Shown here piece by piece: positions 6,487 to 23,153 of a stretch of DNA of 64,000 nucleotides (positions are counted from its first letter, which is position 1; each line of letters begins with the position of its first letter). Made by a program: the position numbers and the translations under genes. Source of the DNA: Streptomyces sp. NBC_00557 (lineage in GTDB: Bacteria; Actinomycetota; Actinomycetes; Streptomycetales; Streptomycetaceae); assembly GCF_036345995.1 (NCBI RefSeq), contig NZ_CP107796.1, forward strand, positions 5,394,001 through 5,458,000, given 5' to 3'. The notes below the pieces were generated by a model. It was not told the DNA's origin and ran no database searches. It saw nothing but the letters and a program-made list of their open reading frames with translations.

Positions 6487-8745
6487 GTGACCAACATCCC
6501 CGAGACCGGCCGGACCCCACGGGTCCAGATCCGGCTCGTCGTGATCCAGATCCTCGTCCTCTCCCTCCTCGGCACGCTCGGCGGCCGGCTGTGGTACCTG
6601 CAGATCCGCGAGGGCGCCCAGTACCAGAAGGAGGCGTCCGGCAACCACGTCCAGCAGGTCGTCGACCCGGCCGTGCGCGGCGACATCCTCGACGCCCGCG
6701 GCGTACCCCTCGCGGACAACGAGACCCGCCTGGTCGTCTCCGCCTCCCGCACCGACCTGCTCAAGCAGAAGGACGACGGCAAGGCCGTCCTCACCAAGCT
6801 GGCCGGCGTCCTCGGCATGAAGCCCGCGGACGTCATCCAGAAGGTCCGGCTGTGCGACGCCAAGACCCCCAAGCCGTGCTGGAACGGCTCGCCGTACCAG
6901 CCGATCCCGATCACCGACGAGGCGACGCCCAAGCAGGCCCTGCAGATCCGTGAGCGCGCCGAGGACTTCCCCGGCATCACCGCCGAGCCCGAGGCCGTGC
7001 GCCGCTACCCGGGCCCCGGCGGCTCCAACACCGCCCAGGTGCTCGGCTATCTCTCGCCCGTCACCGACGCCGAGATCGAGAAGGCCAAGAACACCGACTC
7101 GCCCTACCTGCGCTCCGACATGGTCGGCCGCTCCGGCCTGGAGCGGGAGTACGACAAGGAGCTGCGCGGCAAGGCCGGCGTCACCCGCTACGAGGTGGAC
7201 AACCTCGGCCGGGTCATCGGCAAGGCCAGGTCCGACGCCGCCGAGCCCGGCGCGAACCTGGTCACCAGCATCGACTCCCGGGTCCAGCGCGTCGCCGAGT
7301 ACGAACTGGACAAGGCGATGAAGGCCGCCCGCCAGCAGTTCGACAAGATCACCGGCGAGAACTACAAGGCCGACTCCGGCGCCGTCGTGGTCATGGAGGC
7401 CAAGACCGGCCGCGTCGTCGCCATGGCCTCCGCCCCCACCTACGACCCGAACGTGTGGGTGGGCGGCATCTCCGCCAAGGACTACAAGGCCCTCACCGGC
7501 AAGGACTCCGACTACCCGCTGCTCAACCGGGCCATCCAGGGCCAGGCGGCCCCCGGTTCGACGTTCAAGGTGGTCTCCACCGCCGCCGCGGTCAACGCCG
7601 GCTACCCCTGGGACGGCGGCTACCCCTGCACCAGCTCCTACTCGGTCGGCGGCCAGGTCTTCAAGAACTTCGAGGGCGAGAACTTCGGCGACATCTCCCT
7701 GGGCCGCGCCCTGGAGGTCTCCTGCGACACCGTCTTCTACGGCCTCGCCGACAAGGAGTGGAAGAAGGACGGCGGCATCAACCCGAAGAAGGGCCAGCCC
7801 AAGGACTGGTTCTTCAGGACCGCCCACCAGTTCGGCCTCGGCAAGGAGACCGGCATCGACCTGCCCAACGAGGTCACCGGCCGGGTCCCCGACCGCCAGT
7901 GGAAGCTCGACTACTGGAAGGCCAACAAGGACGCCTGGTGCAAGACCGGCAAGAAGGACGGCTCCTACGTCCAGAAGATCGCCTACGAGAACTGCCTCGA
8001 AGGCAACAAGATGCGCGAGGGTGACGAGATCAACTACTCCATCGGCCAGGGCGACACCCTCGTCACGCCGATACAGGAGGCGATGATCTACAGCGCCGTC
8101 GCCAACGGCGGCACCGAGTACGCCCCGACCATCGGCAAGGCGATCATCAGCCCCGACGGCAAGACCGTCCAGCAGATCAAGCCGAAGGTGGCGCGCAAAC
8201 TGCCCGTCAGCCAGGCCACCCTCAAGGGCATGAACGACGCCTTCGCGGGCGTCATCACCCGCGGTACGGCGGCGTGGAAGTTCAACGGCTGGCCGCAGGA
8301 CAAGATCCCGCTGCACGGCAAGACGGGTACGGCGGAGGTCTACGGCAAGCAGACCACGTCCTGGCTGGCCACCTACTCCAAGGACTACACGGTGATCATG
8401 ACGATCGCCCAGGCCGGTACGGGTTCCGGCGCCTCCGGTGAGGCCGTGCGCAACATCTACAGCGCGCTCTACGGCGTCCAGGGCGACGGCTCCATCGACA
8501 AGAAGAAGGCGCTCCTGCCCGAGCCGCAGAAGGGCCTGCCCAAGGTCCGCCCGGACGGCACGATCGCCTCCCCGAAGATCACCGGCGACCCGGCGAAGGA
8601 CGCCGAGGCCTCCCAGCAGGACAACCCCAGCAACGGCACCGACCAGCAGCAGCCCGCCACCACCCCCTCGCCCACCGCCGGAAACCGCAACACCCGCAGG
8701 GCGGGCGCCCGCCGCAGGAGGGGAAGCCGGAGGATGCCCTCATGA
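6487..8745 (+). CDS. mrdA: class B penicillin-binding protein 2 (peptidoglycan transpeptidase)
   Basis: This is the DD-transpeptidase of the elongation/sporulation wall machine. It cross-links the glycan made by the neighbouring SEDS protein RodA. The 752-aa protein has an N-terminal membrane anchor (about residues 15-35, LVVIQILVLSLLGTLGG). A PBP dimer domain follows with RGDILDARG and RYPGPGGSNTAQVLGY. The transpeptidase domain carries the serine motif PGSTFK (~residue 358), SCD (~412) and HGKTGTAEV (~612). The C-tail is long, disordered and rich in D, Q, N, P and R. The GTG start is preceded by GAGGGGGAG. The final codons overlap the rodA start (ATGA), so the pair is translationally coupled. 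Confidence 0.95.
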   Translation: MTNIPETGRTPRVQIRLVVIQILVLSLLGTLGGRLWYLQIREGAQYQKEASGNHVQQVVDPAVRGDILDARGVPLADNETRLVVSASRTDLLKQKDDGKAVLTKLAGVLGMKPADVIQKVRLCDAKTPKPCWNGSPYQPIPITDEATPKQALQIRERAEDFPGITAEPEAVRRYPGPGGSNTAQVLGYLSPVTDAEIEKAKNTDSPYLRSDMVGRSGLEREYDKELRGKAGVTRYEVDNLGRVIGKARSDAAEPGANLVTSIDSRVQRVAEYELDKAMKAARQQFDKITGENYKADSGAVVVMEAKTGRVVAMASAPTYDPNVWVGGISAKDYKALTGKDSDYPLLNRAIQGQAAPGSTFKVVSTAAAVNAGYPWDGGYPCTSSYSVGGQVFKNFEGENFGDISLGRALEVSCDTVFYGLADKEWKKDGGINPKKGQPKDWFFRTAHQFGLGKETGIDLPNEVTGRVPDRQWKLDYWKANKDAWCKTGKKDGSYVQKIAYENCLEGNKMREGDEINYSIGQGDTLVTPIQEAMIYSAVANGGTEYAPTIGKAIISPDGKTVQQIKPKVARKLPVSQATLKGMNDAFAGVITRGTAAWKFNGWPQDKIPLHGKTGTAEVYGKQTTSWLATYSKDYTVIMTIAQAGTGSGASGEAVRNIYSALYGVQGDGSIDKKKALLPEPQKGLPKVRPDGTIASPKITGDPAKDAEASQQDNPSNGTDQQQPATTPSPTAGNRNTRRAGARRRRGSRRMPS

Positions 8746-12534: not shown

Positions 12535-12604
12535 GCGTTCGGGGGAGTCCTCCGGGCGGGTTACGCTTGATGGTCACCCCTGTCAGCTCATGAAGGTTCG
12601 CGAG

Positions 12605-14566
<1,962 letters not shown>

Positions 14567-15013
14567 GGTGGGCGAGGCACTCGATCGGGTGATGGAGGCG
14601 CTGGCCGGGGTGAGTGAGGAGGAGGTAGCGGCTGTGCTGGCTGCTGTCGGTGTTTCTGGACGTCGGCCGGCGGCCCAGAAGCGGACCCTCTGTACGCCCC
14701 TGCCGGAGTCGGCAGGCTGCTCGCGCATTCGCTCAGAGGTGGAGTGGGTCTGAGCTCCCTACGGCTCCTTGCGCAGGTGCATGCCGTTCTGAGCCCTCTC
14801 CCTGATCAGGAGAGGGCTCGGTGGTTTTCGCAGCACCCGTGCCAAGCCAGCAGGTGCTTTATCTGCCGGACGCCCCTCGACCATCGCCCTGTCGGGTGGA
14901 TCAGCAGGATGAAGCGGGATCGAGCGCCCGCGTTGGGGACCCATGGACTCGCGGGCCAGGTCTGCGGTCCGCCACGAGGGATTCGGCGGGCCGGTGCTTC
15001 GTGAGGGGTGAGG
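14567..15013 (+). other. intergenic segment with terminator and a doubtful 67-aa ORF
   Basis: About 450 bp separate the radical SAM gene from the first membrane-protein pseudogene. A possible small ORF (14550-14753, product beginning MVTRTEVGEALDRVMEALAG) overlaps the end of the radical SAM gene. It is helical and Ala/Glu-rich, but I see no homology and no ribosome site. The terminator at 14791 follows. The rest shows nothing recognisable and is less codon-biased than its surroundings. Confidence 0.4.
14791..14819 (+). terminator. terminator hairpin downstream of the radical SAM gene
   Basis: A perfect palindrome, GAGCCCTCTCC followed by CTGATCAG and the complementary arm. A hairpin of the same style (GAGCCCCCTTCCC) follows the duplicated gene end at 17471. 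Confidence 0.75.
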
Positions 15014-15926
15014 ATGGGACCTTCAATGAGCAAGGTTGCCGTGAGCAGGTTGCCGATGGTCGGCACGATGTTCTGGGCGACCAAGATCGTCGCAACCACA
15101 CTGGGCGAGTCGGCATCGGACTTCGTCACGATGGCGCCATTGAACCTCGGCTACGCCGTCGGCGCGATGATCTTCCTACTGGCCTTGGTGGTCACCCTGG
15201 CGATGCAGCTCAAGGCCGACCGCTTCCGCCCGGTGGTGTTCTGGTCGGTCATTCTGACCACCAGCATCGTGGGCACCTCGACGTCCGACTACATCAACCG
15301 CACGGCCGGGCTCGGCTACGCCGGTGGCTCGATTCTGCTGACCAGCCTGCTGGCAATCGTGCTGATCGGGTGGCGGATGACCGGACAAACCATGGATGTC
15401 GAGCGGATCGCCACCACGGAGGGCGAGGTCTTGTACTGGACCGCGGCAATTGGTGTCCAACACGCTGGGCACCTCCAGCGGTGACTTCCTTTCCGGCGGT
15501 CTGGGCCTCGGCTTCCGAGACAGCTCTCTGCTGCTGTGCGGGGCCATGCTCGTGATCCTTGCCACGCATTATCTGACGCCGATCTCGGGCACGGTGCTGT
15601 TTTGGGCGGCCTACGTGTTGACGCGCCCGCTCGGAGCGGTGGTGGAGAACGCGGTGGAAAAGCCCGTCACACAGGGCGGACTTGGAGCAGGAACCACGGT
15701 CACCTCATCCGCGCTGCTCGCTGTCTTGGCCATTCTGGTGGGCCGGCAGATGCTCACCGACCGCCGACAGACCCGCACGGTGGATACCCTCTCCCCTACC
15801 GACAGCCACGATCTCCAGCCCGTCGACCCATCAACGGCAACCTTGTCGGCTGACTACGCGGGCAAACCTAGCCGCCACAGGCCGAAGGGGAGTGGTCGGG
15901 CCGATCGCCGAGCTGAGTGGGGCTGA
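15014..15926 (+). pseudogene. COG4705-type membrane protein, frameshifted
   Basis: Two overlapping frames together encode a ~300-aa relative of the intact protein at 16209-17081. Frame one (from ATG 15014) runs through KIVATTLGESASDF, STSDYINRTAGLGYAGG and on to LYWTAA. The match then jumps frame near 15448-15452 and continues as LVSNTLGTSSGDFLSGGLGLGF and RPLGAVVENAVEKP. Alignment with the paralogue implies loss of two bases between the codons for WTAA and LVSN. About eight hydrophobic segments would be present if the frame were restored. Without the repair the product stops at ~157 residues, so this is a pseudogene or a sequencing error. Confidence 0.75.
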
Positions 15927-16075: not shown

Positions 16076-16208
16076 CCTCCGGCGCGGGTGAGGTTGACAG
16101 GTAAAGCACGCCGGGCGCACTGACGCAAGATCCGTGGTGCGCACCCCCGTTCAGATCGACCTTGTCAGGGTCGAACGGAGATCCCCCCACAAGTACAGGA
16201 GCACCCTT

Positions 16209-17081
16209 TTGACGTCGACGAAGTCTGTGATGAAGAAGCTGCCCGAGGTCACGCTGGCGTTCTGGATCATGAAGATCGCCGCGACGACCCTGGGTGAGAC
16301 GGCGGGCGACCTGTTCTCCCAGACGCTCAAAATCGGCTATTTCCTCACCACGATCGCCCTGTTCCTGATCTTCGTGGTGACGCTGGTGGTGCAGCTGCGA
16401 TCCGCGCGCTACAACCCGTTCTTCTACTGGACCGTGATCCTGTCGACCAGCATGGCCGGCACCACGATGTCCGACTTCATGAACCGCGACGCCAGCGACA
16501 AGTACCTCTCGGGCGGCGCCACTTCACTGGGCTGGGGCCCGCAGGGCCTCGGCCTCGGCTACCCGGAGGGAGCCGCGATCCTCGTCTCCATCCTCCTGGC
16601 GATCTTCGTCGCCTGGAGGATCAGCGGGATGACGTTCCAGATCCGCGACATCGTCACCTTCAAGGGCGAGGCCCTGTTCTGGGCGGCGATCCTCGTCTCC
16701 AACACCCTCGGTACCTCGATGGGTGACTTCCTGTCCGACAGCTCCGGACTCGGCTACCTGGGTGGTGCGGCGCTGGTGTCCAGCGTGCTGGTCGTGCTGG
16801 TCGTCCTGATGAAGGCGCCCGCCGTCCCGAACGTCCTCCTGTTCTGGATCGCCTTCGTCCTCACCCGCCCCCTCGGCGCCACCGCCGGCGACTTCCTCAC
16901 CAAGCCGGTCGCCAAGGGCGGACTGAACCTCGGCACCGCGGGCTCCTCGGCCGTGCTGCTCGCCGTCCTGCTCGGCCTGATGGCCTACGCGCACATCCAG
17001 GAGCGCAAGGCCGTCACACCGAGCCTTGAGACGGTCGGCCCGGAGGCCGCAGCGGCCCGCCAGGAAGCAAGTCCTCGGTAA
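16209..17081 (+). CDS. COG4705-type integral membrane protein with four-fold internal repeat
   Basis: The 290-aa protein has about eight transmembrane helices. Related motifs occur at four places: ATTLGETAGDL, AGTTMSDFMNRD, NTLGTSMGDFLSD and RPLGATAGDFLTKP. Each follows a Lys-, Ser- or Arg-led helix, which implies ancient duplication of a two-helix unit and a symmetric site in the membrane. Proteins of this type are annotated only as conserved membrane-anchored proteins (COG4705) and I know no proven function. A TTG start at 16209 is chosen because AGGAG sits 7 bp upstream; ATG 16230 is the alternative. It is the intact sister of the frameshifted gene just upstream. Confidence 0.8.
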   Translation: MTSTKSVMKKLPEVTLAFWIMKIAATTLGETAGDLFSQTLKIGYFLTTIALFLIFVVTLVVQLRSARYNPFFYWTVILSTSMAGTTMSDFMNRDASDKYLSGGATSLGWGPQGLGLGYPEGAAILVSILLAIFVAWRISGMTFQIRDIVTFKGEALFWAAILVSNTLGTSMGDFLSDSSGLGYLGGAALVSSVLVVLVVLMKAPAVPNVLLFWIAFVLTRPLGATAGDFLTKPVAKGGLNLGTAGSSAVLLAVLLGLMAYAHIQERKAVTPSLETVGPEAAAARQEASPR

Positions 17082-19928: not shown

Positions 19929-22568
19929 GTGGGGTTGGAATCAAGTGTGAGGGTCTTCGGCAGCGACGTGTCCGTCGGCCGCCCCGCCCCCGGCACAGGG
20001 GCGGGCCGCAAGGGGCTCAAGAGCGATGCGCTCGGCCTGTTCTCCTCGGTGGCCATGGGCCTCGCCTCCACCGCGCCGGCGTACAGCCTGGCCGCCACGC
20101 TGGGCATCATCGTGGCCGGGGTCGGACTGCAGGCCCCGATCGTCACCATGCTGGCGTTCGTCCCGATGCTGCTGGTCGCGTACGCCTTCCGGGAGCTCAA
20201 CGCCAGCAACGCCGACTGCGGCACCACCTTCACCTGGGCCACCCGGGCCTTCGGGCCGCGCGTCGGATGGATGGGCGGCTGGGGCCTCATCGTCGCCAAC
20301 GTCCTCGTCATGGCGAACCTCGCCGAGGTCGCCGCCGCCTACGGCTTCCGGCTGGTGGGCCTGGACGGCCTGGCGGACGACCGGCTGTGGACCACCGTGG
20401 TGGGCGTCGGCTGGATCGTCGTGCTGACCGCGGTCTGCTACGTCGGCATCGAGTTCTCGGCGGCCGTCCAGCGCTGGCTGCTGTGCCTCGAGGTCGCGGT
20501 GCTGGTCCTGTTCGCGCTGGCCGCGCTGGTCAGGGTCTACACCGACCCGCCGCCCACGGCGATCCATGTGTCGGCCTCCTGGTTCAACCCGTTCGACGTG
20601 TCCTCGGCGAAGGCCCTGACCTCGGGCCTGCTCGCGGGCGTCTTCATCTACTGGGGCTGGGACACCGCGTTCTCGGTGAACGAGGAGACCGTCGACAGCA
20701 CCCGCATCCCCGGGCGCGCCGCGATCCTGGCCACGGTGCTGCTGCTGGTCATCTACGGGCTGGTGTCCACCTCGGCGCAGGCGTTCGCGGGAATCGGCAC
20801 CTCCGGCATCGGGCTCCGCAACGGGCGAAACTCCGACGATGTGCTCTCCGTACTGGGCCAGGCCGTGTTCGGCAGCCAGGGCGTCGGCCTGCTGCTGTCG
20901 CGGCTGCTGATCCTGATGGTGCTGACCTCGGCGCTGGCCTCCGCCGTGACCACCATCCTGCCGCTGGCCAGGACCGTCTTCTCCATGGCGGTCCACAAGG
21001 CCGTCCCGGCCCGGTTCGCCCGGGTCCACCGCAGGTTCCTCACCCCGACCTGGGGGACCCTGGGCATGGGGGTGGCCTCGCTCGCCCTGTACGTCCTGAT
21101 GGCCCTGCTCAGCCGGAACGTGATGGCCGACACGATCGAGTCGGTCGGTCTCGCGATCGCCTTCCAGTACGGGGTGACCGGGTTCGCCTGCGTCTGGTAC
21201 CACCGCAAGGCCCTCGCCGAGAACGCCGGAAACCTGGTCTTCAAGGGCGTCCTGCCGGGCCTCGGCGGGCTGGTCATGGCCCTGCTCTTCGTCTACGCCA
21301 CCTTCGTGGTCTACGCCAACCCCCAGTACGGCGAGACCATCATCGACGTGCCGTTGATCGGCCGGACCGGCGGGGTCACCGTGCTGGGTCTGGGCGCCCT
21401 GCTGATCGGTCTCCTGCTGACGCCGGTGGTCACCCGCGGCCACGGCGTCGCCCTCAAACTCCAGCGGAACCTGCTGCCGCGCCGTCTGCCGCAGCACGCC
21501 GCCGTGGACGCGTCCAGCCGCTACCTGCCCGCCGACAACGGCTCCGGGGTGGGCGGCGACTGGTACGACGTCATCCCGCTGTCGGGCACCCGGGTGGGCC
21601 TGGTCGTCGGCGACGTACTCGGTCACGGACTGCGGGCCGCGGCCACCATGGGACGCCTGCGTACGGGGGTGCGCGTCCTGGCCCGGCTCGACCTGAGCCC
21701 GGACGAGCTCCTGTCCCGGCTCGCCGACCTGGTCGAGGAGAGCGCGTGCGAGGGCGGGCACCGCCGCGGCCCGGGCCGGCCGCGGCCGCACACCGACGAG
21801 GCGCTCGGCGTGAGCTGCCTGTACGCGGTCTACGACCCCGTCTCGGGGCAGTGCAGCCTGGCGCGGGCCGGTGACCTGGCGCCGATGGTGGTCGACCCGC
21901 GCACGGGCCTGGTGCACCGTCCGCGGGTGCCGCCCGGACCGGCGCTGGGCGTCGGCGGCCTGCCGTACCAGAGCACGGAACTGGAACTCGCGCCGGGCAG
22001 TCTGCTCGCCTTCTTCACGGACGGCTTCCTGCAGACGGCCCCCGACCGGGAGGCCGGGCTCGCCCAGCTGGCGCGCGTCCTCACCGGCGCCCGGGGATCC
22101 CTGGACGCGCTGTGCGACAGGGCGGTGGCCGACCTGCTGCCCGGACCGGTCGACGTGGACGCCACGCTGCTCCTGGTCCGTGCCCGCATGCTCGACCGCA
22201 CCCAGTTCGCCGAGTGGTCGGTGCTCCCCGACCCGGCGGCGGTGGCCACCGTCCGTACCGCCGTCGGCAAGCAGCTCAGCGACTGGGACCTGCACGACCT
22301 GGCGTTCACCAGCGAGCTCATCGTCAGCGAACTGGTCACCAACGCCATCCGGTACGTCGGCGGTCCGATCCGGGTACGCCTGATCCGCGACCGGGCCCTG
22401 ATCTGCGAGGTGTCCGACACCGGCCACACCTCGCCCAATCTGCGGCACGCGGCGAGCGAGGACGAGGGAGGGCGGGGCCTGTTCATCATCGCCCAGATGA
22501 CCCACCGCTGGGGCACCCGGTACACGCCCACGGGCAAGACGATCTGGACCGAGCAGGACATGCCGTGA
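19929..22568 (+). CDS. fusion: APC amino-acid permease + SpoIIE PP2C phosphatase + HATPase_c
   Basis: The 879-aa single frame has three parts. Residues ~25-500 form an APC-superfamily permease with about 12 hydrophobic segments (start SDALGLFSSVAMGLASTAPAYS, then DCGTTFTWATRAFGP). Residues ~510-745 are a SpoIIE-type PP2C phosphatase: LQRNLLPRRLPQ entry helix, GGDWYDV, VVGDVLGHGLRAAATMG, FFTDGFLQ and VDATLLLVR. Residues ~757-879 are an anti-sigma-type ATPase with N-box SELVTNAIRY, EVSDTGHTSP and GGRGLFII. In the common actinobacterial architecture, PAS or GAF sensors precede the phosphatase; here a whole transporter does. The usual AGHPP box reads AGDLAP and one of the usual paired aspartates is V, so activity should not be assumed. 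GTG 19929 has GGAGGG 6 bp upstream. I infer a membrane transceptor that couples transport to anti-sigma/anti-anti-sigma signalling. Confidence 0.85.
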   Translation: MGLESSVRVFGSDVSVGRPAPGTGAGRKGLKSDALGLFSSVAMGLASTAPAYSLAATLGIIVAGVGLQAPIVTMLAFVPMLLVAYAFRELNASNADCGTTFTWATRAFGPRVGWMGGWGLIVANVLVMANLAEVAAAYGFRLVGLDGLADDRLWTTVVGVGWIVVLTAVCYVGIEFSAAVQRWLLCLEVAVLVLFALAALVRVYTDPPPTAIHVSASWFNPFDVSSAKALTSGLLAGVFIYWGWDTAFSVNEETVDSTRIPGRAAILATVLLLVIYGLVSTSAQAFAGIGTSGIGLRNGRNSDDVLSVLGQAVFGSQGVGLLLSRLLILMVLTSALASAVTTILPLARTVFSMAVHKAVPARFARVHRRFLTPTWGTLGMGVASLALYVLMALLSRNVMADTIESVGLAIAFQYGVTGFACVWYHRKALAENAGNLVFKGVLPGLGGLVMALLFVYATFVVYANPQYGETIIDVPLIGRTGGVTVLGLGALLIGLLLTPVVTRGHGVALKLQRNLLPRRLPQHAAVDASSRYLPADNGSGVGGDWYDVIPLSGTRVGLVVGDVLGHGLRAAATMGRLRTGVRVLARLDLSPDELLSRLADLVEESACEGGHRRGPGRPRPHTDEALGVSCLYAVYDPVSGQCSLARAGDLAPMVVDPRTGLVHRPRVPPGPALGVGGLPYQSTELELAPGSLLAFFTDGFLQTAPDREAGLAQLARVLTGARGSLDALCDRAVADLLPGPVDVDATLLLVRARMLDRTQFAEWSVLPDPAAVATVRTAVGKQLSDWDLHDLAFTSELIVSELVTNAIRYVGGPIRVRLIRDRALICEVSDTGHTSPNLRHAASEDEGGRGLFIIAQMTHRWGTRYTPTGKTIWTEQDMP

Positions 22569-22605: not shown

Positions 22606-23153
22606 ATGGCCGTCGCCCGGTGCGCCCGCGGACTGGGCCGCCTGCTCGCCGTGATCGGCACCGGCGTGGGGGTCGCCCCGTACCGGATCGTGCGCGTGCT
22701 CCTCGTCCTGCCCGCCGTCGCGCTGTGGCGCCGGGTCCACGCCCCCGCCGCCGCGTGCTCGCCGCCGTCGCGCGAGAGACAGGCGACGCCCCCGGGCACG
22801 CCTGGCGCATCGCCGGGCGGATCTCGCGGGTCGTGGGGCGCGCTCTCGGGACCCTCTTCCGGTGGATCTTCGTGGAGCCGCTGCGCCGCGCGTACCGGGC
22901 CGTCCTCACCCCGGTCGGCCACCTCGTGCGGGAGGCCGTCCTGCGGCCAGCCGCCGAGGGCGCACGCGTGGCGGGGCCGGGCCGTGCGCGACGCGCTCGC
23001 GGCGGCCGCCGGACGGTACGGCAGGCCCGCGCGGACGTCCGGCGGATGCTGTCCGGCGAGCCCGGGCAGCCGGCCGCGGCGGACCGGCGGGAACCTCACG
23101 GGCCCGCGACACGTACTCTTGGTAGCAGTACGACCGCACTCACGAAGGACTAG
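22606..23153 (+). pseudogene. basic helical protein gene, apparently frameshifted
   Basis: The frame from ATG 22606 reads MAVARCARGLGRLLAVIGTG, then APYRIVRVLLVLPAVALWRR, with strongly Streptomyces-like codons. Near 22745-22757 the coding signal moves to another frame and continues as VLAAVARETGDAPGHAWRIAG and LGTLFRWIFVEPLRRAYR to a stop at 23151-23153. A second pair of compensating shifts is possible near 22975-23020 (the stretch RAVRDALAAAAG is in the other frame). Neither single frame gives a sensible protein. It would be a ~180-aa Arg-rich protein with one or two hydrophobic helices, ending just before the DUF2344 gene. It is a degraded gene or a sequencing artefact; I do not recognise the family. 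Confidence 0.45.

Follow-up and report, generated by a model that had tools for sequence, protein, structure and literature searches.

The window analysed here, a 64,000-nucleotide stretch of the Streptomyces sp. NBC_00557 genome (contig NZ_CP107796.1, positions 5,394,001 to 5,458,000), contains a single gene that encodes an APC family amino acid permease fused to a SpoIIE-type phosphatase of the PPM (PP2C) fold and to a HATPase domain of the RsbW type. Comparison with its relatives demonstrates that this permease-phosphatase-ATPase fusion is real, not an assembly error, that the putative metal-binding triad of aspartates in the phosphatase is altered in most of the fused proteins by several separate events, and that the ATP-site residues of the kinase domain are almost invariant; the last two findings go beyond an earlier note made from the sequence of the window. 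The architecture fits a transceptor in which signalling would be driven by the substrate, and we assign roughly even odds (probability about 0.5) to the reading that the permease controls the kinase/anti-sigma output of the HATPase domain via a crippled phosphatase acting as the coupling domain.

The frame is open throughout its 879 codons, from the GTG at 19929 to the stop codon at 22566-22568, and a Pfam scan of the product (E-value up to 1) produced matches to AA_permease, SpoIIE and HATPase models only. All three domains scored above the cut-off: AA_permease_2 at residues 35-472 (109.1 bits against 27), SpoIIE at residues 553-752 (139.3 against 25) and HATPase_c_2 at residues 767-873 (45.2 against 27.4). 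The permease part is predicted to adopt the LeuT-type fold of 12 transmembrane (TM) helices, with TM1 and TM6 broken; the Pfam score and the PPM fold place the middle part in the SpoIIE/RsbU type, and the HATPase_c_2 score along with the N, G1 and G2 boxes places the C-terminal part in the RsbW/SpoIIAB type. The earlier note, which proposed this domain search, had described an uninterrupted 879-aa frame with these three parts, the phosphatase entry motif, the three ATPase boxes and two atypical phosphatase motifs (AGDLAP and an Asp replaced by Val), all of which were found. The features of the gene are as follows.

19929..22568 (+): whole fused gene, 879 aa, GTG start, stop at 22566-22568
20031..21344 (+): APC amino acid permease, residues 35-472; 12 TM helices counting TM12; TM1 broken at 48-49, TM6 at 242-243
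21372..21431 (+): TM12, residues 482-501; stands where the paralogues have their last GAF helix
21432..21434 (+): seam, residue T502; permease-derived upstream, SpoIIE entry segment of the TREHTAALxLQRSLLP type starting here
21435..21473 (+): predicted phosphatase entry helix, residues 503-515 (AlphaFold2 model)
21585..22184 (+): SpoIIE/PPM phosphatase domain, residues 553-752 (Pfam; Foldseek matches to Rv1364c, RssB and, with a first, poorer model, SpoIIE)
21612..21614 (+): D562, corresponding to metal ligand D628 of SpoIIE; Asp retained here, replaced by E or N in 38 of 204 fused proteins
21873..21875 (+): D649; His (AGH motif) in 27 of 29 unfused SpoIIE relatives
22020..22022 (+): D698, equivalent of SpoIIE D746; kept here, non-Asp in 100 of 204 fused proteins
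22155..22157 (+): V743, in place of the equivalent of the SpoIIE metal ligand D795
22227..22547 (+): RsbW/SpoIIAB-like HATPase_c_2 domain, residues 767-873 (Pfam, residue check)
22341..22343 (+): N805, Asn of the N box; invariant in 204 of 204 fused proteins

A survey for the same architecture, another suggestion of the earlier note, yielded 186 further clusters with all three parts. The permease, SpoIIE and HATPase parts were each matched by BLASTP in all 187 clusters (P0001 and the 186 others), which come from lists of the best 120 among about 8000 scored candidates each, so that the family counts are lower bounds. The first list comprises 120 proteins with 74-94% identity to the window protein, and a second list, seeded with a distant member, added at least 66 clusters. 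The source names of the fused clusters are mostly Streptomyces, followed by Kitasatospora, and names that occur once include Streptantibioticus ferralitis, Saccharothrix sp. ST-888 and “Actinobacteria bacterium OK006.” In NCBI, the fused proteins are mostly named “amino acid permease” or “SpoIIE family protein phosphatase,” and the JGI name is “amino acid transporter/anti-sigma regulatory factor.” Matches over both halves came from 18 of the 293 genomes of the order (own genome included), and permease matches of at least 71% identity in frames of at least 898 aa, where the fusion is read from the frame length, came from 8 of the 150 genomes of the genus (own included); among the 396 genomes of a phylum survey, the own genome was the only one to give a match to both halves at the threshold applied. 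The own genome (9.0 Mb) contains one match across the full length, the next best being a paralogue, L002, with 56% identity over the C-terminal half. The one-frame, three-part architecture in 187 of 187 clusters and in 17 fused loci rules out an assembly or frameshift artefact as well as chance adjacency. In the portions of the open-licence literature available, we recognised no description of an APC permease fused to SpoIIE.

The putative metal ligands of SpoIIE are D628, D746 and D795 (PMC5468089). In the alignment with SpoIIE (5mqh), where the three stand at one constant offset (579), they correspond to D562, D698 and position 743 of the window protein; the DD pair starts with D795, and position 744 is ruled out as the D795-type ligand because the constant offset gives 743. 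The window protein has D562, D698 and V743, that is, an incomplete Asp triad, and additionally carries D649 where 27 of 29 unfused relatives (a set of 27 from the own genome and 2 others) have His. Because V743 replaces the equivalent of the D795 ligand, the phosphatase is probably catalytically crippled in the clade of the window protein.

The 204 fused proteins comprise those of 187 clusters and of 17 loci, with a possible overlap where both represent the same gene; the triad is altered in 178 of them, and all three Asp are present in 26. Position 562 is occupied by D in 166, E in 26 and N in 12 of these proteins; position 698 by D in 104; and position 743 by D in 62, V in 83, E in 56 and M, T or N in 3. 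Parsimony on the tree yields 5 state changes at position 562, with the E562 groups arising by 3 changes and the N562 group by 1, and 33 state changes at position 698, 19 of them between kept and lost Asp. At position 743, there are 3 kept/lost changes, one of them back to Asp in P0096; this protein carries Asp at all three metal positions inside the altered clade and is perhaps a reversion. The 141 proteins united by a residue other than Asp at 743 represent essentially one event, with the E562 and N562 groups as further events. Within the main clade, site 698 ranks 32 among the 253 PPM sites by the number of changes (25 on the tree), with non-Asp residues in 83 of the 121 members of the first list, and the adjacent G699 never changes. 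In the rooted tree, triad-intact members are found on several early branches and the altered ones are mostly nested inside, so that an intact triad is most simply considered ancestral; P0129, with E562, branches first, with weak support.

The ATP site presents a different picture, with N805, D830, G848 and G850 found in all 204 fused proteins and G832 in 203. The ratios of nonsynonymous to synonymous substitution rates (dN/dS), obtained by the Nei-Gojobori method, which is rough in GC-rich DNA, are about 0.44 for PP2C, 0.40 for the permease and 0.29 for HATPase in the main clade, and 0.40, 0.32 and 0.29, respectively, in the other fused loci. The PPM domain is constrained though two of the three ligand places are not, a pattern that would be expected of a structural or coupling role, and the likely output of the fused protein is the kinase/anti-sigma domain. 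The suggestion of the earlier note that the signal output may be altered can be sharpened in this sense: the atypical site is there, but V743 points to a phosphatase that is probably crippled and to an output that likely comes from the kinase.

The core of the permease has been largely preserved. Residues S47, P50, A51 and S53 of TM1 and the WGWD motif of TM6 (242-245) are kept in fused and free permeases (one fused row is gapped), T48 and A49 of TM1 are not, and clean differences between the fused and stand-alone sets are limited to two sites, P95A and L450M. Of 185 sites that are conserved to at least 97% among 42 stand-alone permeases, 10.1% per protein have changed in the main clade compared to 5.1-6.0% in the other fused groups, and the overall divergence of this clade from the stand-alone consensus is 0.325 compared to 0.28-0.30. 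In this clade the ligand may have changed, or the carrier may be turning into a receptor, although a faster branch alone could also account for these values.

According to the AlphaFold2 model and the alignment, TM12 stands at the seam where the paralogues have their last GAF helix, and it leads into the entry helix of the phosphatase. The module relatives that were scanned carry N-terminal PAS/GAF sensors, some also with Cache, and the C-terminal module of L002 stands behind Cache, PAS and GAF domains; the transporter indeed sits in the sensor position, as the earlier note had it. The model used was built from a wider alignment, the permease part of the first one being poor (pLDDT 61); the VIA-align rows mainly cover residues 25-536, so that this aligner hardly probed the C-terminal half. 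The best Foldseek match of the C-terminal half is Rv1364c, whose structure (3ke6) is also the sole sequence match in the PDB at an E-value of 0.001. Both the fold and the near-continuous helix from TM12 to the phosphatase entry are predictions of the model.

A mechanism can be outlined along these lines. The 12-TM permease would bind, and probably still carry, an amino acid or amine, and its conformation would be passed through TM12 to the entry helix and the switch helices of the PPM domain, for which RsbU is a precedent. The PPM domain would in turn act on the C-terminal RsbW-type HATPase, which would phosphorylate a STAS domain anti-anti-sigma protein or hold a sigma factor. The phosphatase site was most likely complete in the ancestral fusion, which could then have worked both ways, as phosphatase and kinase; with the metal site altered in the window clade and, separately, in several others, the PPM domain would have become a coupling element, leaving the kinase/anti-sigma domain as the only output. 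We consider this the best explanation of the fusion, the single clade, the seam, the metal-site changes and the ATP-site conservation that the sequences show; ligand sensing, coupling, phosphatase loss, kinase output and partners are inferred.

Several observations weigh against this transceptor reading. The 178 altered proteins are not independent, 141 of them being essentially one clade with non-Asp at 743, and the invariant D562, D742 and D744 of the main clade might allow activity with one metal or with shifted ligands. Among the unfused SpoIIE-HATPase paralogues of the own genome, 6 of 24 have another residue in at least one of the three Asp positions, namely, L128 (E562), L129, L003, L004 and L008 (Asn at 698, in the TDG motif) and L135 (all three); this control, which comprises the 27 best of 92 matches (one with an internal stop was skipped), 24 of them carrying HATPase, weakens the case for the metal-site change as a peculiarity of the fusion. 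At residue 49, all 42 free permeases have Ala and 105 of the 204 fused ones have Gly, so the carrier itself may have changed. The spacing from TM12 to the LLP motif is fixed at 40 residues in all 204 fused proteins, but indel-free windows of that size are common (438 of 819), so that the constant linker is weak evidence for helical coupling; moreover, the structural model is a monomer. Among 14 fused loci, no neighbour gene is common to more than four. Finally, CbrA of Pseudomonas, the nearest precedent, transports L-histidine and has kinase activity (PMC7096432, PMC13022988), but no CbrA activity is significantly affected by L-histidine and the transporter domain is not essential for kinase activity (PMC7096432), so that coupling of transport and signal is unproven even there.

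Apart from their bearing on this reading, the paralogues suggest that silent phosphatase domains may be common in the own genome. A residue other than Asp at position 743, in contrast, is found in 142 of the 204 fused proteins, nearly all from one clade, and in only 1 of the 24 paralogues.

The direction of control could also be the reverse, with the permease as the effector and the PPM-HATPase tail, together with STAS partners, gating or switching uptake. The c-di-AMP-binding tail of KimA gates or switches uptake, and STAS domains are thought to gate SulP carriers; one of the closest folds is that of KimA, an APC transporter whose structure was determined with bound c-di-AMP, the core permease positions are kept, and a regulatory scaffold with a dead phosphatase would need no signalling output. 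We nevertheless regard this possibility, although a serious rival, as unlikely: the tail copies a module whose scanned relatives have sensors at the N-terminus, the permease occupies precisely that input seam, and conservation of the ATP-site residues suits a signalling output.

Somewhat less likely still is a phosphatase that remains active via D562, D698 and the flanking D742 and D744 with shifted metal ligands, in which case the fused protein would be a normal bifunctional SpoIIE-HATPase with a permease as the sensor. The main clade shows no variation at D544, D562, D742 and D744, D698 is retained in the window protein, and the full triad persists in a minority of the family; against this activity, a Val replaces the D795-type ligand, site 698 is among the more changeable ones in the clade, and the histidine of the AGH motif is also gone.

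That the permease is a mere membrane anchor for the switch module, neither sensing nor transporting, is improbable. The greater share of changed sites among the otherwise conserved permease positions of the main clade, including the substitution of Gly for A49 in TM1, could be taken in this sense, but the remaining TM1 core positions and the TM6 WGWD motif are kept, the dN/dS of the permease is about 0.3-0.4, and a carrier of 500 residues would be costly for anchoring. A decaying, functionally neutral fusion, to which the repeated metal-site changes and the highest dN/dS of the PP2C part might point, is very unlikely given the open frames in the window and 17 fused loci, the retention of the HATPase residues and dN/dS values well below 1 in all three domains.

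Going further, we tentatively, and with less than even confidence, propose a class of bacterial APC transceptors in which a nearly unbroken helix from TM12 to the phosphatase entry connects the permease to a partner-switching module and in which the phosphatase has been repeatedly silenced, so that a two-way phosphatase/kinase switch became a one-way, transport-gated anti-sigma kinase with a pseudophosphatase for coupling; the change in the permease core of the main clade would suggest a shift from carrier to receptor.

In a permease tree built from 45 fused and 29 stand-alone sequences, a branch with a Shimodaira-Hasegawa-like approximate likelihood ratio test (SH-aLRT) value of 100 separates the two sets, and the fused proteins again formed one clade in a second, rooted tree (89 rows); both were quick IQ-TREE searches with SH-aLRT support only. 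The closest stand-alone permeases belong to one genus (g2), in which they are present in 14 of 14 genomes. A SpoIIE gene lies directly downstream, on the same strand, at 5 of the 26 stand-alone permease loci examined, namely, 3 of 16 fetched g2 loci (L082, L083 and L106; 17 were found, and L103, a partial one, was left out), 2 of 2 loci of genus g3 (L084 and L120) and none of 8 others, a chosen part of many; these neighbours were sought by BLASTP with three queries, so that SpoIIE genes of other types could be missed. The two paired phosphatases that were scanned are a PAS-SpoIIE (L083) and a GAF/PAS-SpoIIE (L084), both with intact TDG and DD motifs, and the domain scan found no HATPase in either. 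The permeases of the two pair types fall in two separate parts of the tree. Thus, this permease line seems to have been joined to SpoIIE more than once, by fusion or by neighbourhood, which gives the best independent clue that the two are linked in function, albeit from a small sample of two genera.

The fused gene sits between a radical-SAM gene (12590-14566) and a block consisting of a small open reading frame (ORF), DUF2344 and rne, with DUF347, MFS and LysR genes located in the same interval between the radical-SAM gene and DUF2344/rne. The accessory block proposed in the earlier note fits this interval in part. Among the relatives, the small ORF that precedes DUF2344/rne lies downstream of the fused gene in 6 of 7 loci with 78-81% identity and in none of the 7 with 67-70%. 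The small basic ORF (22620-23153, +) has no Pfam match and is 66-71% identical to its counterparts ahead of DUF2344/rne in the relatives. Neighbourhoods were fetched for 14 of the 17 fused relatives (about 8 kb per side), genes there and in the permease/SpoIIE pairs being called by a home-made rule based on GC content at third codon positions (GC3), and up to four genes per side were clustered and read without a Pfam scan. By this procedure, the most widely common neighbour is the small ORF before DUF2344/rne, called in 4 loci of one clade; two weak neighbour pairs cross sublineages (L069/L079 and L070/L081), and no STAS or sigma factor gene was recognised as a shared operon partner. The genome contains 18 STAS matches, all of them outside the window, so a partner, if any, is not nearby. 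At one of the 14 loci (L074), a gene for an RsbW-like HATPase (7527-8108, +), 44% identical to the HATPase of the fusion, lies just ahead of the fused gene and in the same orientation. Elsewhere in the window, a DUF347 gene (15008-15926, +) is split over overlapping frames of 158 and 176 aa, each of which contains DUF347 repeats, and resembles a broken tandem copy of the intact DUF347 gene downstream (16134-17081).

The bacterial proteins described with a transporter as the sensor are few, among them CbrA-type SLC5 kinases and the relatives with a 5TMR fold. If the transceptor reading holds, nutrient carriers would have a direct line to sigma factor control in Streptomyces; the seam would provide a clean test of how a TM helix drives RsbU-type switch helices, and the natural occurrence of intact and altered phosphatases behind the same permease would make the roles of phosphatase and kinase separable without designed mutants.

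The solved APC permeases ApcT, KimA, BasC and AdiC share the fold of the N-terminal half but have no switch module fused, KimA binding c-di-AMP according to the titles of its structure entries. The C-terminal module is the same as in the Streptomyces PAS/GAF-SpoIIE-HATPase proteins (L002, L005, L006, L008, L066, L067 and OsaC, which we take to have a HATPase domain), with 53-65% identity in the best matches. The entry segment TREHxxALxLQRSLLP is also the same, whereas a 12-TM permease replaces the PAS/GAF/Cache sensors and the metal site is usually changed in the fusion. PMC12143880 gives GAF and PAS domains for OsaC. Rv1364c (PAS-RsbU-RsbW-STAS) has phosphatase and kinase domains in tandem, as in the fusion, but unlike it has a soluble PAS input and its own STAS domain, and RssB of Escherichia coli, which lacks phosphatase activity, is a precedent for a non-catalytic PPM switch domain, although its PPM domain is partly missing and it has a response-receiver input and a protease-adaptor output (PMC12143880). 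The nearest printed relative in kind, judging by the excerpts available, is the 5TMR-SpoIIE fusion, where, likewise, a transporter-related membrane fold is joined to a SpoIIE-type PPM domain; that fold, however, is of the 5TMR/S-component type rather than a 12-TM permease, and HATPase is not mentioned in those excerpts (PMC11109136). Neither the SLC5 transporter nor the STAC domain was found in the fused protein by the Pfam scan, which places it outside the CbrA family. Like CbrA and the SLC5-STAC kinases, the fusion unites a transporter and a signalling kinase in one polypeptide, but in this case the transporter is of the APC (AA_permease) type, the output belongs to Ser/Thr partner switching, and a PPM domain stands between the two.

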